Shown here piece by piece: positions 1 through 14,185 of a stretch of 64,000 nucleotides of DNA (the first letter of the stretch is position 1; the number at the start of each line of letters is the position of its first letter). The notes under the pieces were generated by a model. The model saw only the letters and a program-made list of their open reading frames with translations. It was not told the origin of the DNA and ran no database searches. Both the position numbers and the translations under genes were made by a program. The stretch comes from Bacteroidota bacterium (lineage in GTDB: Bacteria; Bacteroidota; Bacteroidia; Chitinophagales; Chitinophagaceae), in contig JAFDXO010000182.1 in the NCBI GenBank assembly GCA_018267925.1, forward strand, positions 1 through 64,000, written 5' to 3'.

Positions 1-60
1 ATCTCTATGTCTTTTATATCGCTTCATATCTATTGAATTATGGCATAAAGATACTGACAT

Positions 61-465
61 TCAACATAATACAGAAACAGTATAGTATAATGTAATGTTA
101 ATTTTAGTTTTTAGAGGTGCCCTTAATGCGGTGTAAATGCCCATCTTTCTACATTCCGGTTTCACAAATCCTTCTGATACATAAAGGTCGCTACCACTTC
201 CTCTTTCAAAATTACTATTGTCAGGCTCATCTATATAACCAAAAATAAAGCCCACAGCCTCTTTGTCTATTTCTGCAACCAGAAAAATGCCTTCACATTC
301 GTTCATACATTCTTGAACATGTTGAAGGTATGAGGTGCTAATATCTTCCCATTTGGCTGTGTTAGGATTTAATGTTTGTTCTGAAGTGTGTAAAGCTTTC
401 AGCATTTCATCAGCCAATACTATTTCTTCGGGAAACTGCAATGGGCGAATGTTTAGCGGTTTCAT
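61..465 (-). pseudogene. GNAT-family N-acetyltransferase, C-terminally truncated
   Basis: The 134-residue product begins like a GNAT acetyltransferase, which moves an acetyl group from acetyl-CoA to an amine. The core strand IFLVAEIDKEAVGFIFGYI is followed by motif A (CRKMGIYTAL), the pyrophosphate-binding loop, with Tyr where a second Gly/Ala is usual. Straight after this loop the protein runs into AT-rich sequence and stops, so the last third of the fold (strands 5-7) is missing. The other two frames also hit stops within about a dozen codons of the break, so a single frameshift does not restore it. The start at 465 (MKPLNIRPL) is preferred to an upstream start at 528, because 528 lies inside the preceding gene. 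It sits 29 bp downstream of the NRPS-like gene on the same strand. It is probably a decaying gene, or else a naturally short variant. Confidence 0.6.
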
Positions 466-494: not shown

Positions 495-3400
495 TTATGA
501 TTTGGGTGCAACAGGGCTTCCTTCCCATATTGTATCATCGGGCAATTGTTCTCCTTTCATGACTAATGACAACGAATCTATTGTTACTTGGTTGCCGATT
601 TCACTGTCGTATAAAATGATGCTTCGAGTGCCTATGGTAGTTTTTTCGCCAATTTTCACCGAGCCGATTTTCATGATTCTATCTTCAAACAGATGTGTTT
701 GTGGTCCACAATCTTCGTTAAGCATAGATTCTTTACCAATCTCTACCATGTCAAATTCGGTAATGTCTGTTGTGTTTAGCCACACACGTTGTCCAATTTT
801 TACACCTAACAATCGCATGAGCATAGGAAGCCACATAGTTCCACGTAAGGCATCTAATAGATAAGGTACCGATAAGGCTTCATGAAAACTGGTGACTGCT
901 TCGCTAAGCCAAACTTTGATGCTGTACATGGGATAGGCTGCGGGCTTGTATTTGCCAATCAGCAACCATTTTAGCAAAACAGTTATTAAAAACAAGGGCA
1001 CTCCCATGAAAAAGAGGTAATAAAATGGGAGTTGCAACAATAAATTGCCGAATGATACTTTTAGCAAATTATGGGCGTATGCAATCAACAAAACGGCTGA
1101 AATTAAAATGCAGGTTTGGGGCAATAGGATTCGTAAGCCTTCTACTGTCCCGCGTGCCAGTTTTAAATAAATGGGTGGATGATAAGTTCGAGCAGCATTA
1201 AACCCTTTTAGCTTTTCGCGTGCCGGCAGTGCGATGGGGGGCGATCCAAACCAATCTACATTTCGATTGTCATCTAATTTATTTTGGTCGGGTGCTTTTG
1301 ATAGGACTCCGATCAAGGTGTTATCTTTCAAATAATATCCTTGAGGGATCAAGCCGCTATTTCCGATGAAACTATTATTGCCTACATAGGTTTTTTCCAG
1401 TGTCAAAGTTTCGTTTCGAACATCATGCTCACCAAGAATTACAGCATCGGCAATGAAGGAACCATCTCCAATTTCTAAAAGGTGATGGCTAACATCGCTT
1501 GCTGTTGAAATTTCGGAATTACTGCCAACTTTTGCCCCCAACAACCTATAATACCACGACACATAAATGGAAGCGTATAGCGGATGTAAAACTATTAGCG
1601 AAAGGTTCATCAATTGATCTTTCAACCATTTTCTATAGTATGTAAAACTGTAAATGGAATACTGACCTGGCTTCATTTTTATCTGCAATAGTCTGGATAA
1701 GGCTCCTACTATAAGGATGAAAATGAGTAGATAGGATAAGGCTAAAAAGGGAGATTTCCATAAGTAGGTAAAGTCATAATCATCAGCATTATTGTCTAAA
1801 AAATAGAGTGAATACAAGGTGGGCATCAGAGGAACGATGACTATAATGGGAAATATGGCCAGTGATAGTAGGTAGAGTAAGGAAAAGCGATGCCTTTTGG
1901 CAACAGAGGTAGGTGTAAAAGACGGAATTTCAGTTTCTGTTCTGATATGTATTCGTTGTGCCGGACTCCCATTCCACACTTCGTTTCGCTTGATGATTTG
2001 TCCTTCCGACAAACAACTTAGTTCTTGCAATTCGCCATTTTCTTCAATTCGTGTATTGCCACAAACAATAGCTGAGGAACCTAAATAAGAATTGGGTGCA
2101 AGATGAACATGTCTGAGTTTTAAAATGCCATTTTCTACGGTCGCATTGTCAATGGCACAACCAGAACTGGTGCTTACATTTCTGCCTATTGTTACCAGAT
2201 CTTCCGCACCAATAGATAGTTGACTGAGCTGGGCAGTGCTATGTACTTTCACACCAAGCAAACGTAGGTATCTTGGATAAAGTGGTGTGTCCACAACAAA
2301 TTGTGAGGGTAACAAGCGTTTTAATGCTTTCCAAAACCACCATCGAAAATAGTACCAACCCCAAAGTGGATAATCGCCTTCTTTTAATTTGCCGACAATA
2401 AGCCATTTCAACACAATGGCCGTAAGGGCTAATGTGGGAGGGATTATAAGATATAAAATGGTTGAACTCAATAATGCTGATAAGTGAGAATACCCTTCTA
2501 CGAGATAATAATAATAACTGAGATAAGGAGCAATCACTTCTATGGCTAATAAGCCAAACACAAAAAACAAGGAAAGGGTTTGAAGTAAATTGCACCAATA
2601 ATATTGAGCCGTTGATACACGCCTAAATGTTTGCTCAGGTTTAACCTTGGGGCTTTCTGCTTTGTTCTTTTCAGCTAAAATTTCTGCAAACTTGCTTAAC
2701 GGACGGTATTCATAAACGTCTTTTAAGGAAGCCTTCAATAAGTTTGCATCACGGCGAAGGTGTGAAACAGTAGTGGCGGCAAGCAAGGAGTGTCCACCTA
2801 AATCGGTAAAAAAATCATCGTTGAGGGTAATTTCTTTGCCCGGAAAAACTTGGTGTAAAACCTTAAGCAATTTAGTAGAAACAGAGTCAGATTCATTAAT
2901 GGAATTTTGTGTGTCTGACGACTTGTTTAAAAAACGATCGGGTAGGGGAAGACTTTTACGGTTTATTTTTCCACTGGGCATTCTGGGCATTTCTGATAGC
3001 CTTTCTATCATCACAGGAATCATATATGGGGCTAAAAAAGTAGCAAGTTTTTGACGAATGGTATTTTCATCAAAAGATTGATTGCTTACCACATAGCCGA
3101 CTAATTGATCTTGACCATTGCTGTCGGGCTTGATGGCAACTGCGGCTGATTGTATATCCTCAATAGCATTTAATCTTGCTTCAATTTCTCCTAATTCTAT
3201 TCGGTATCCACGAAGCTTTACCTGATCATCAAATCGTCCATGAAATTCAATAAATCCATTGGGTCGTATTACTACGGCATCGCCGGTTTTATAGAGCTTT
3301 TCTCCGGGTAATTCTGCAAAAGGGTTGGCAATAAATTTTTGCTTTGTCAGTTCAGGAAGATGAAAATATCCGTTGCTTACACCCGGACCTGAAATTACTA

Positions 3401-4427
3401 ATTCGCCCCGCTCGCCCCGAGGTACAATATTCATTTGTTCATCTACTACCGCTAAGTTGTAATTGGGCAAGGGCGGTCCTATTGAAATCTCATCACCGGC
3501 TTGGCAGAATGCCATGTTGGAAGTAACAGTCGTTTCAGTTGGTCCATAACTGTTGATAAATTGACGATGAGGTGTCCCCCATTTTTGTAACACAATCTGG
3601 GTGCAAGCTTCGCCGCCTGAATTGACAAGCCTAAGCGTAGGGATTTCATCAATGAGAGCCAAAACACTTGGCACGGCATGTAGTATAGTAATCTTTTGTG
3701 TGCGTAAAACATCACTTAATTCATCTAATGCTTTTACAGTCAAAGCATCTGCTATCCATATAGTGGCACCGGCAAAAAGGCTAATCCAAACTTCTTCACA
3801 CCACATATCAAACGATACCGAAAAACCTTGATAGACACGGTCTTCCGGCTGTATTTGGATGACTGATTGCTCTGCTCTGATCAGGTGGCAAATATTGTGG
3901 TGAGCTATTGGAATACCTTTAGGATTACCTGTGCTGCCGGATGTGAATAATACATAAGCCCTTTGGTTGGGATTTGTATGCGTATTGGTAAATTCTACTT
4001 TAGTTTCCGGCAGTTTGGGTACAGTAAGATTTACAGCAGAGACCGGCGCATTTGAATCAGAGAAATAGGCTTTCACCTGAATATCTTCAAATACAACTTG
4101 CACACGCTCAATCGGCATTTCCCTGTCTAAGGGTATATAAGTAGCTCCTGCTTTTAAAATGCCTAAAATAATAACGGGAAGCTCTAAACTTCGAGGATAC
4201 CAAACCCCTATGCAATCACCCGAAACGATACCATTGCCTTGTAAAGATTTTGCAATAGCATTGCTCCAATTGTCTAATTGTTCATAAGTCAGGTTTTTAT
4301 CTCGAAAAATACAAGCAGTCTTCTTGGCAAAACGCTGAAACGTAGGTGCAAGCAATTGAGGAAGAGTCTCCGATTTTATCAAGTCGGGGAGGGCGGTTCC
4401 CAAAATGATACTGTTAGATTGGGTCAT
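495..4427 (-). CDS. Membrane-bound NRPS-like peptide synthetase, Pls (epsilon-poly-lysine synthetase) architecture
   Basis: This 1310-residue protein has the same order of parts and almost the same length as Streptomyces epsilon-poly-L-lysine synthetase Pls (about 1319 aa). An adenylation domain covers residues 15-490: A3 loop TSGSTGNPKG at 162-171, A5 NSYGPTETT at 292-300, A7 YKTGD at 379-383, A8 near 397-416, A10 Lys487. A carrier domain at about 515-585 has phosphopantetheine Ser547 in DLGGHSLL. Six hydrophobic segments lie near 612-634, 650-678, 847-870, 891-914, 1098-1122 and 1130-1157. These alternate with three left-handed beta-helix-like soluble domains, each opening with RLLG[VA]K (722, 961, 1205) and closing with a W-x-GSP motif (818, 1059, 1301). 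There is no thioesterase or classical condensation domain. By position, the substrate pocket reads D207 M208 E211 H250 V268 S270 S293 V301 T302 K487. Asp207 fits an alpha-amino acid, and Glu211 suggests a cationic side chain. The actual substrate is unknown. Confidence 0.88.
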   Translation of the reverse strand: MTQSNSIILGTALPDLIKSETLPQLLAPTFQRFAKKTACIFRDKNLTYEQLDNWSNAIAKSLQGNGIVSGDCIGVWYPRSLELPVIILGILKAGATYIPLDREMPIERVQVVFEDIQVKAYFSDSNAPVSAVNLTVPKLPETKVEFTNTHTNPNQRAYVLFTSGSTGNPKGIPIAHHNICHLIRAEQSVIQIQPEDRVYQGFSVSFDMWCEEVWISLFAGATIWIADALTVKALDELSDVLRTQKITILHAVPSVLALIDEIPTLRLVNSGGEACTQIVLQKWGTPHRQFINSYGPTETTVTSNMAFCQAGDEISIGPPLPNYNLAVVDEQMNIVPRGERGELVISGPGVSNGYFHLPELTKQKFIANPFAELPGEKLYKTGDAVVIRPNGFIEFHGRFDDQVKLRGYRIELGEIEARLNAIEDIQSAAVAIKPDSNGQDQLVGYVVSNQSFDENTIRQKLATFLAPYMIPVMIERLSEMPRMPSGKINRKSLPLPDRFLNKSSDTQNSINESDSVSTKLLKVLHQVFPGKEITLNDDFFTDLGGHSLLAATTVSHLRRDANLLKASLKDVYEYRPLSKFAEILAEKNKAESPKVKPEQTFRRVSTAQYYWCNLLQTLSLFFVFGLLAIEVIAPYLSYYYYLVEGYSHLSALLSSTILYLIIPPTLALTAIVLKWLIVGKLKEGDYPLWGWYYFRWWFWKALKRLLPSQFVVDTPLYPRYLRLLGVKVHSTAQLSQLSIGAEDLVTIGRNVSTSSGCAIDNATVENGILKLRHVHLAPNSYLGSSAIVCGNTRIEENGELQELSCLSEGQIIKRNEVWNGSPAQRIHIRTETEIPSFTPTSVAKRHRFSLLYLLSLAIFPIIVIVPLMPTLYSLYFLDNNADDYDFTYLWKSPFLALSYLLIFILIVGALSRLLQIKMKPGQYSIYSFTYYRKWLKDQLMNLSLIVLHPLYASIYVSWYYRLLGAKVGSNSEISTASDVSHHLLEIGDGSFIADAVILGEHDVRNETLTLEKTYVGNNSFIGNSGLIPQGYYLKDNTLIGVLSKAPDQNKLDDNRNVDWFGSPPIALPAREKLKGFNAARTYHPPIYLKLARGTVEGLRILLPQTCILISAVLLIAYAHNLLKVSFGNLLLQLPFYYLFFMGVPLFLITVLLKWLLIGKYKPAAYPMYSIKVWLSEAVTSFHEALSVPYLLDALRGTMWLPMLMRLLGVKIGQRVWLNTTDITEFDMVEIGKESMLNEDCGPQTHLFEDRIMKIGSVKIGEKTTIGTRSIILYDSEIGNQVTIDSLSLVMKGEQLPDDTIWEGSPVAPKS

Positions 4428-7822: not shown

Positions 7823-9058
7823 TTAGCGTCGTCCTCCAAATCCACCACTGCTTCTTCCGCCGCCACCCATGCTTCCGCCACCGCCGCCAAATCCACCACG
7901 AGAAGGTGCTTCCATTCGTGGAGCAGAATAGCTCGGTTGTTGCATTCTCGGTTGCTCATAGCGTGGTTGTTCATAGCGTGGTTGTTGATATTGTTGTGGT
8001 TGTTCGTAGCGTGGTTGTTGATATTGCTGTTGATTTCTATAGCCGTTATCGAATTGTTGGGGCTGACGATATCCTTCATTACGTGGTACTTCATTATAGT
8101 TTCTACTTCCGTCAATTCGACCGGAATTGTAGGATGGGCTTGCGTTTTCATTCATTCTGATAGATCTGTCTGAATAGTCACGAACAGGTTCATTACCTCT
8201 TGAAAAACTACTTCTATTGGGACGATCAATATTGCCCACTGCATTCGGAGAACGATCCGGTTGCGTGTTCATACTGTTATTGGGTCTTTCAGGAACTCTT
8301 GTCCCTGCACTATTGGAGGGTAGATTTCTTGCAGGTGGACGAACGCCGGCACCCACATTGCCACCTGTTTGGTTGCTGTTAGATAACTGACGAATACCGG
8401 TATTATTGTAAATGGCATTAGTTGAATTACGAGGTCCGTAATTCACGTTTCTGACGGTTGTATATTGGTTGTATAAACCGGCATAATATCCATTCCAATA
8501 GCCTGAATAATAGGGGTTTCCACCATACCATCCACCATAGTAAGGATAATTCCAACAACTGTAATAAGCCGGATAACCCCACCATGTGTACCATCCCCAA
8601 TATGAGTTCCAATATGGTCCGTAGCCATAACTCATGGAAAATACAGGGCGATTCCAGGCACTCCATCCCCAATAAGGGTCATACCAGTATGGATTGTACC
8701 AATATGGATTATAGAAAACACTCCAATACCCCATATTATAAAATGAATTGTCAAAGCGATTGATGCGAGAGGCATAAGTATATCCGTTGTCATAATCATT
8801 ATAGTCATTGTAGCCATCATTACCATAGCTATGACCATAAGATTGATAACTGCCATCAGAATCTTGATAACTGCCATCATCTTGGTTATCGCCATATTGC
8901 GAATTTCGCTGTGCAGCTTGTTTTTCAGCTTGGATTTTGTCTTGTTGCTTTTGCTTTTCTATATCAGAACTGTTGAAATAGATGTCATCATTCTGTGCGA
9001 AGGTGGCTACTTGTCCCACACCGATGAGCAACAAACCAATTAATAGCAGCCTTTTCAT
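7823..9058 (-). CDS. Secreted low-complexity protein rich in Tyr, Trp, Asn, Gly and Gln
   Basis: The 411-residue product starts with a clear signal peptide (MKRLLLIGLLLIGVGQVATFAQ). A Gln/Ser/Asp/Tyr stretch follows, then an aromatic block of short YNPYW and YDPYWGW units around residues 110-195. Next come an Asn/Arg/Pro-rich linker, tandem YQQPRYEQPQ-type repeats near 340-375, and a Gly-Phe-Arg tail (GGFGGGGGS, GGFGGRR). There is no recognised catalytic domain. Proteins of this kind are common and unnamed in Bacteroidota. The composition suggests a surface, matrix-like or self-associating role, but this is inference. It is divergent from proS. The repeated DNA creates long open frames on the opposite strand that are artefacts. 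Confidence 0.8.
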   Translation of the reverse strand: MKRLLLIGLLLIGVGQVATFAQNDDIYFNSSDIEKQKQQDKIQAEKQAAQRNSQYGDNQDDGSYQDSDGSYQSYGHSYGNDGYNDYNDYDNGYTYASRINRFDNSFYNMGYWSVFYNPYWYNPYWYDPYWGWSAWNRPVFSMSYGYGPYWNSYWGWYTWWGYPAYYSCWNYPYYGGWYGGNPYYSGYWNGYYAGLYNQYTTVRNVNYGPRNSTNAIYNNTGIRQLSNSNQTGGNVGAGVRPPARNLPSNSAGTRVPERPNNSMNTQPDRSPNAVGNIDRPNRSSFSRGNEPVRDYSDRSIRMNENASPSYNSGRIDGSRNYNEVPRNEGYRQPQQFDNGYRNQQQYQQPRYEQPQQYQQPRYEQPRYEQPRMQQPSYSAPRMEAPSRGGFGGGGGSMGGGGRSSGGFGGRR

Positions 9059-12778: not shown

Positions 12779-14185
12779 TTATTTGGTCATTGTCTTTTTG
12801 GCTTCAATGCTAAGCGTAGCATGAGGCACGGCACGCAAACGAGCTTTGTCAATTAATTTTCCAGTAACCCGGCAAATACCATAAGACTTGTTTTCGATAC
12901 GCATCAATGCTTTTTCAAGATGACTGATAAATTGGATTTGGCGGCTGGCTAATTGGGCTAATTGTTCACGTTCCATTGCGCCGCTTCCATCTTCCATATT
13001 CATGTAACGGTTATCAGTATCTTCTGTTCCAGCTTCCTCTTTGCGAGTAATCAATCCTTGTAAGTATGCCAATTCTTTTTTGGCAGCTTCCAGACGGTTG
13101 AGAATTAATTCCTTAAATTCATTTAACTCTTCGTCGCTATAACGATAAACAGGTCCTTGATTTTCGGTTGGTACGTCAAGTATTGATCGTGTAAATTCCG
13201 GTTGATAATTGATCATGGTTTTTGATTCCGTTTGCTTAGATTTATTTTCTAAACGACGATGAGCAATAATCACGTTTACTTTCTTTTCTTCACGAATTGC
13301 GCTGCGAGTGATTGCAGGGCGATTGGCCGGATTAGTAACTACCGGAGCAACGGGTTTTGCATTCGCTTTTACTAAAGGTGCAACGATTATTTTTTTAATG
13401 GGTTTTTTAGTCTTTTTTATCGAAGCTTCTTTAATAATTGGTTCCTTACCGACTATTTCTTTTGATGCTATTGAGGCTTTTTTTACCTGAGGGGCAATTT
13501 CATTTTTTACAACTGGTGCTACCTTTTTAGCAGGTACTGCTTTTTTAGCAGGTACTACTTTTTTAGCAGGTACTACTTTTTTAGCCGGTGCTGCTTTTTT
13601 AGCAGGTACTGCTTTTTTAGCCGGTACTACTTTTTTAGCCGGTGCTGCTTTTTTAGCCGGTGCTGCTTTTTTAGCCGGTGCTACTTTTTTAGCCGGTGCT
13701 GCTTTTTTAGCTGGTGCTGCTTTTTTAGCCGGTGCTGCTTTTTTAGCTGGTGCTGCTTTTTTAGCTGGTGCTGCTTTTTTAGCCGGAGCTGCTTTTTTAG
13801 CCGGAGCTGCTTTTTTAGTTGGAGCTGCTTTTTTAGCCGGAGCTGCTTTTTTAGCTGGTGCTGCTTTCTTAGCTGGTACTGCTTTTTTAGCTGGTGCTGC
13901 CTTTTTAGCCGGAGCTGCTTTTTTCAAATTCTTTTTATTCACAGTTTTAGTATCTTTTGTTATCGTAGCACTTTTTTTTAGGTTCGTCATAGCCTTTCCC
14001 TTAGTAGTTGTTGCTTTTACTGCTCCATTTTTAGCAGGAGTAGGGGATGATTTCTTCTCCGATTTAGATTTTACTTTTGGCGCAGGCATGGAAACATCCT
14101 TCTTTTTCACCGCGACTTTGACGGATTTTGCTGTAGGCTTAGCTTTTGATGTGGCTTTTGTAGCCAGTTTCTTTTGGGTGGCCAT
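12779..14185 (-). CDS. DksA/TraR-type protein with histone-H1-like Pro-Ala-Lys tail
   Basis: The 468-residue protein has two parts. Residues 1 to about 330 are highly basic: a Lys/Ala/Ser-rich leader, then about 22 tandem six-residue units of AAPAKK type, then a Lys/Pro/Val linker. From about 345 to the end lies a DksA/TraR domain: a coiled coil (EELNEFKELILNRLEAAKKELAYLQ and the returning helix) and the globular end YGICRVTGKLIDKARLRAVPHA. DksA proteins bind in the RNA polymerase secondary channel. Of the four zinc Cys in the classical finger only one (GIC) remains, so it should not bind zinc in that way. The basic tail resembles H1-like DNA-binding tails and may anchor the protein to DNA. 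It ends 7 bp from the ileS stop on the same strand. Confidence 0.85.
   Translation of the reverse strand: MATQKKLATKATSKAKPTAKSVKVAVKKKDVSMPAPKVKSKSEKKSSPTPAKNGAVKATTTKGKAMTNLKKSATITKDTKTVNKKNLKKAAPAKKAAPAKKAVPAKKAAPAKKAAPAKKAAPTKKAAPAKKAAPAKKAAPAKKAAPAKKAAPAKKAAPAKKAAPAKKVAPAKKAAPAKKAAPAKKVVPAKKAVPAKKAAPAKKVVPAKKVVPAKKAVPAKKVAPVVKNEIAPQVKKASIASKEIVGKEPIIKEASIKKTKKPIKKIIVAPLVKANAKPVAPVVTNPANRPAITRSAIREEKKVNVIIAHRRLENKSKQTESKTMINYQPEFTRSILDVPTENQGPVYRYSDEELNEFKELILNRLEAAKKELAYLQGLITRKEEAGTEDTDNRYMNMEDGSGAMEREQLAQLASRQIQFISHLEKALMRIENKSYGICRVTGKLIDKARLRAVPHATLSIEAKKTMTK
13525..13921 (-). repeat. Tandem 18-bp coding repeat (AAPAKK units)
   Basis: About 22 consecutive 18-bp units encode A-A-P-A-K-K with A/V and one A/T substitution. 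They are in frame inside the DksA-type gene. Third-position differences show the array is old enough to have diverged but still regular, so length differences between strains are expected. Confidence 0.9.

Follow-up and report, generated by a model that had tools for sequence, protein, structure and literature searches.

Enzymes that string identical amino acids into positively charged polymers of the antimicrobial type are known, and experimentally confirmed members of the family have been reported from Actinomycetes, Acinetobacter and fungi. The described systems closest to the present case are Pls, the epsilon-poly-L-lysine synthetase of Streptomyces albulus (PDB 7WEW, A domain), the poly-diaminobutyrate (poly-DAB) and poly-diaminopropionate (poly-DAP) synthetases of Streptomyces, and PosA, the delta-poly-L-ornithine synthetase of Acinetobacter baumannii (PMC10522769; PDB 8G95-8G98). 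In the adenylation (A) domain of PosA, D217 and E221 bind the two amines, and M218 tunes for chain length, this residue being Phe for DAP/DAB, Met for ornithine and Ala for lysine. The T304A and S313A variants display 33- and 183-fold decreases in catalytic efficiency, respectively. The A domain also shows modest activity on lysine, which it binds weakly, and lysine activation is raised by M218A (all PMC10522769).

The DNA analysed here, referred to as the window, is a stretch of 64,000 nucleotides from a Bacteroidota genome, and its relevant features are given in Table 1. The plus strand across 495-4427 was full of stops, and the synthetase frame was found on the opposite strand. As a frame of 1310 codons was matched by several profiles, a chance ORF was set aside and no further test of chance was needed. 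Pfam identified AMP-binding (residues 31-355), AMP-binding_C (414-487) and PP-binding (522-582) domains, and neither a thioesterase nor a classical condensation domain was present in the protein by Pfam. Six hydrophobic segments were found at about residues 611-639, 649-679, 846-877, 888-919, 1097-1126 and 1129-1159. Three C-terminal repeats start with RLLGVK, RLLGAK and RLLGVK, and end with WNGSP, WFGSP and WEGSP, respectively. The resulting order, A domain, carrier, six transmembrane (TM) helices and three tandem C domains, is the architecture of Pls and PosA. The NCBIfam model TIGR02353 (Pls/PosA family NRPS) matched residues 615-1306 with 639.8 bits against a curated cut-off of 423.1 bits, spanning model positions 2-695 of 695. 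Judged by its sequence, the protein belongs to the curated Pls/PosA family over its full length, and an annotation pipeline that includes TIGR02353 would already name it as such. The first-pass annotation of this DNA had described a 1310-residue protein with a single A domain, a single carrier, six TM segments and three repeats, without thioesterase or classical condensation domain, and had likened the protein to Pls. Our domain searches and hydrophobic segments agree with this description, and the C-terminal domains align with the Pls/PosA model from end to end.

Table 1. Features of the synthetase locus, with positions in the window.
Feature	Position	Strand	Basis
Pls/PosA-family membrane NRPS, predicted delta-poly-L-ornithine synthetase, 1310 aa	495..4427	minus	ORF, Pfam, TIGR02353, pocket alignment
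Adenylation domain, residues 31-487; pocket code DMEHNGSVTK, with PosA 8g95/8g97 as nearest solved relative	2967..4337	minus	Pfam, PDB match
Carrier (PP-binding) domain spanning residues 522-582; Ser547 within GGHSL as phosphopantetheine site	2682..2864	minus	Pfam, alignment
C-terminal polymerisation unit, residues 615-1306, six TM helices and left-handed beta-helix repeats C1-C3	510..2585	minus	TIGR02353, model
QTHLFEDR motif, residues 1243-1250 including H1245, candidate catalytic site in C3	678..701	minus	conservation
5' part (about 114 codons) of GNAT N-acetyltransferase gene downstream of the synthetase, cut by insertion-type repeat end	123..465	minus	orthologues, profile
End of multi-copy repeat, probable insertion sequence, terminal GGGCACCTCT, interrupting the GNAT gene	1..122	no strand	repeat search

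Concerning the substrate, alignment to the solved PosA gave D207, M208, E211, H250, N269, G271, S293, V301, T302 and K487 as the pocket residues. An earlier reading of the pocket as DMEHVSSVTK was correct at eight positions; V-S at positions 5 and 6 was rejected after the alignment and replaced by N-G. The alpha-amine Asp and the pocket Glu proposed in that reading are D207 and E211, which align to PosA D217 and E221 at pocket positions 1 and 3. The pocket of the A. baumannii family member examined (L158) was DMEHNGTVSK by alignment. The window and PosA pockets are thus identical at eight of ten positions, and at the other two, one hydroxyl residue is exchanged for another (Ser/Thr). The losses observed in T304A and S313A indicate that hydroxyls matter at exactly these two positions, 7 and 9, occupied here by S293 and T302. 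The size-setting position is Met (M208). When the pocket region was compared with solved structures, PosA (8g95/8g97) was by far the closest with 211.5 bits, while the epsilon-poly-lysine synthase 7wew scored 114.8 bits and the best NRPS outside the family, 8xjz, 112 bits (two domains summed). The pocket matches that of a diamino-acid synthetase and does not fall with enzymes that activate compounds other than amino acids. Since the protein keeps the amine-binding, size-setting and hydroxyl positions of PosA, ornithine is the best monomer prediction. We consider it highly probable that the gene encodes a PosA-type synthetase, likely producing a homopolymer of L-ornithine (delta-poly-L-ornithine). 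The first-pass proposal of a polymer of a basic amino acid was essentially right, and as the pocket narrows this to L-ornithine, the closer model is PosA and not Streptomyces Pls.

Taking into account the common family, the weak binding of lysine to the PosA A domain and the effect of M218A (PMC10522769), the enzyme might be a homopolymer synthetase of the same kind acting on another diamino acid, chiefly L-lysine (to give epsilon-poly-lysine) or DAB. However, its size-setting residue is neither the Ala of the lysine type nor the Phe of the DAP/DAB type, and pocket positions 4-6 are HNG rather than SIG, YLG or CLS. The lysine-type pocket is DAESIGTVVK in members from Streptomyces, Kitasatospora and a Rhodococcus plasmid, and pockets of the DAB and DAP types begin with DFE. 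Pls, although alike in family, domain order, six TM helices and three tandem C domains, differs in this pocket and in its lower A-domain score against the window protein. The poly-DAB and poly-DAP synthetases are also alike in family and architecture, but a DAB transaminase and an aspartate kinase gene stand alongside the synthetase in a Streptomyces locus of the poly-DAB type, and neither adjoins the gene examined here. The pocket makes lysine, DAB or DAP less likely substrates, and we regard this alternative to ornithine as unlikely.

The C-terminal half was examined with an AlphaFold2 model built from 31 family members (pLDDT 91.2, pTM 0.89). In the model, two long helices stand before each of three beta-helical repeats. 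The first repeat resembled the maltose and galactoside O-acetyltransferases at a middling Z of about 8.2 (rmsd about 3 A over about 145 residues), indicating the left-handed beta-helix fold of hexapeptide acyltransferases. Among solved chains, no close sequence relative of the unit was found and distant hexapeptide proteins alone matched. The same fold was predicted for PosA, whose C1-C3 were argued to form one unit with approximate threefold symmetry (PMC10522769). Unlike the hexapeptide acyltransferases, the window protein fuses three repeats in one membrane chain, would take the acyl group from the carrier thioester instead of from CoA, and has a conserved His only in the third repeat. This residue, H1245, is the only invariant His of the entire C-terminal half across Bacteroidota, Proteobacteria and Actinobacteria, and E1224, Q1243 and D1249, near in sequence, are also invariant. 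A conserved catalytic His in each repeat was not observed: the position aligned to H1245 lacks His in both C1 and C2. The conservation pattern suggests a single catalytic site in the fused trimer, at H1245 in C3, with C1 and C2 serving structural or substrate-binding roles; C1 and C2 could instead act through other residues.

Based on these features, a reaction scheme can be proposed. The A domain would adenylate L-ornithine, with D207 holding the alpha-amine, E211 together with S293 and T302 holding the delta-amine, and M208 setting the chain length. The carrier domain would then take up ornithine on the phosphopantetheine attached to Ser547. From there, the C-terminal unit, which is anchored in the membrane and whose three fused beta-helix repeats would resemble one acyltransferase trimer, may repeatedly pass the ornithyl group to the delta-amine of a further ornithine, generating an isopeptide chain; it is this direction of chain growth that we infer.

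We then examined relatives of the protein. A scan of GTDB genomes gave 80 loci, mostly from Bacteroidota (Taibaiella, Niabella, Ferruginibacter, Edaphocola, Chitinophaga, Mucilaginibacter, Pedobacter, Chryseobacterium, Elizabethkingia and Flavobacterium) and then from Alphaproteobacteria. Members of the Pls/PosA family are common, not unusual, among Bacteroidota. Among 102 distinct full-length proteins, the pocket code was DMEHNGSV[TS]K in 79 and DMEHNGTV[TS]K in another 10, and nearly all examined Bacteroidota homologs had the code of the window protein or a near-identical one. The carrier Ser (Ser547) and the A-domain Lys (Lys487) were kept in all 102 aligned homologs, with no broken copy among them. 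Off-type pockets, DIESIGTVAK, DMETNGTITK, DLEDIGSVVK and DLEDIGTVVK, were observed in four members (L157, L156, L073 and L072, respectively); the DLEDIG type is already among the unique signatures in PMC10522769.

In a full-length maximum-likelihood tree (LG+G4, a quick run with a short search, in which branching outside Bacteroidota, including that of the alphaproteobacterial types, is approximate), the Bacteroidota proteins and one from a Planctomycetota MAG formed one clade with support 100. Its nearest outside neighbours were the protein of A. baumannii and an Azospirillum/Rhizobium pair, with the lysine and DAB/DAP types farther out. The window protein is thus placed with the member carrying the PosA pocket and apart from the lysine, DAP and DAB types (support 99 and 100), as its first-pass assignment to a Pls-type family had called for examining. 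The protein matches PosA in full architecture and length, but the Bacteroidota members are a clade of their own, and the full-length identity of the window protein to the A. baumannii member compared (L158, a putative PosA-type enzyme by its pocket) is 37.7%. The Weeksellaceae proteins (Chryseobacterium, Elizabethkingia) were about 64-65% identical to the window protein and those of other Chitinophagaceae about 55%; the closer similarity to Weeksellaceae hints at transfer of the gene within the phylum.

Within the same taxonomic family, 42 of 296 genomes passed the TIGR02353 cut-off in a profile search, and in the genus itself only the window genome and one other did, so that distribution of the gene is patchy. 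This patchiness, together with the interruption of the adjoining GNAT gene described below, would be expected if the synthetase were inactive or decaying, a remnant of a cluster being lost from the genome. On the other hand, the frame is open over its full length and 93% identical to the sister-species protein over all 1310 residues, and the pocket, the carrier Ser and the A-domain Lys are all kept. We therefore find decay very improbable.

Neighbouring gene families were clustered across 104 distinct loci. A 4'-phosphopantetheinyl transferase (PPTase) gene was present within three genes of the synthetase in 31 loci, which fits the need for carrier activation. In 20 loci, a gene for an orthologous GNAT N-acetyltransferase directly followed the synthetase in the same orientation; in the nearest clade of the tree this was so in 11 of 13 members. 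On a Sphingomonas plasmid, synthetase, PPTase and GNAT genes are consecutive, the GNAT there having no match to the Bacteroidota GNAT profile. The A. baumannii locus that we viewed differs in having no annotated GNAT or PPTase neighbour. PPTase and GNAT are likely helper genes of the Bacteroidota synthetases. PPTases are found beyond the GNAT gene in relatives, and the 231-aa gene at this position in a sister genome was therefore considered as a PPTase candidate; it was rejected, as Pfam gave only a sub-threshold, unrelated match. Neither a DAB transaminase, an aspartate kinase nor a degrading peptidase recurred beside Bacteroidota synthetase genes in the clustering. An M1 peptidase gene adjoins Pls-type genes in Streptomyces and Kitasatospora loci, but none is present at the window locus. 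In a Niabella MAG, a RES-Xre type toxin-antitoxin pair (L083:9263-10155) adjoins the synthetase-GNAT pair.

At the window locus, the end of a repeat interrupts the GNAT gene; seven further copies of this repeat were found in the genome with at least 98% identity, several of them at contig ends. The 3' remainder of the gene was located on another contig (C195:34492-34671) beside a similar GGGCACCTCT end, and TTAA is present on both sides of the interrupting repeat. The gene is intact in the sister species. The repeat is a probable insertion sequence, which explains the contig end at this position.

As a guess, the GNAT might acetylate the polymer, for self-protection or capping. It is conceivable, though we hold it doubtful, that ornithine is loaded but that maturation gives a short, capped or otherwise modified isopeptide, with the conserved GNAT acetylating or capping its chain. 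The frequency of the directly downstream, same-strand orthologue, above all in the nearest clade, would be in line with this; most Bacteroidota loci, however, do not have this GNAT and the gene is interrupted in the window genome, so that the enzyme as such must be able to do without it. More specifically, and only tentatively, the synthetase-GNAT pair of the Bacteroidota clade may yield an undescribed N-acetylated or capped delta-poly-ornithine, formed at the single site H1245 of a fused pseudo-trimer. The delta-poly-L-ornithine homopolymer remains our preferred product.

As for precursor supply, no ornithine-synthesis gene was seen near the synthetase. The window genome contains a borderline arginase match (227.5 bits, cut-off 227.6), which could supply ornithine. 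An ornithine carbamoyltransferase was not found in the genome; its sole PF00185 match was rejected as such, the protein being an aspartate carbamoyltransferase.

The genome also harbours a second NRPS locus (G000:C178, about 61773-74081) with frames of 1735 and 2124 aa. The Sfp-type PPTase of the window genome, Sfp/AusB-like, is encoded on this contig, and related NRPS frames were found in sister genomes. Elsewhere in the window, a minus-strand gene at 12779-14185 encodes a 468-aa protein with a long KKAAPAKK lysine-alanine tract and a DksA/TraR-type C4 zinc finger, resembling a DksA domain with a tail of the histone H1 type. Another on the same strand (7823-9058) encodes a low-complexity protein of 411 aa, which begins like a signal peptide and is rich in Tyr, Trp, Gly and Asn, then in Pro, Gln and Arg, and Gly; it had no Pfam match.

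The kind of enzyme is known; the details open to testing are the ornithine prediction for the Bacteroidota branch, the GNAT and PPTase genes beside the synthetase and the one His that is invariant. The pocket predicts an ornithine monomer for a large set of Bacteroidota, including Chitinophaga, Mucilaginibacter, Pedobacter, Chryseobacterium, Elizabethkingia and others. As several carriers are cultured type strains, this prediction is directly testable, and the invariant H1245 offers a single mutation able to probe the polymerisation mechanism of these enzymes.
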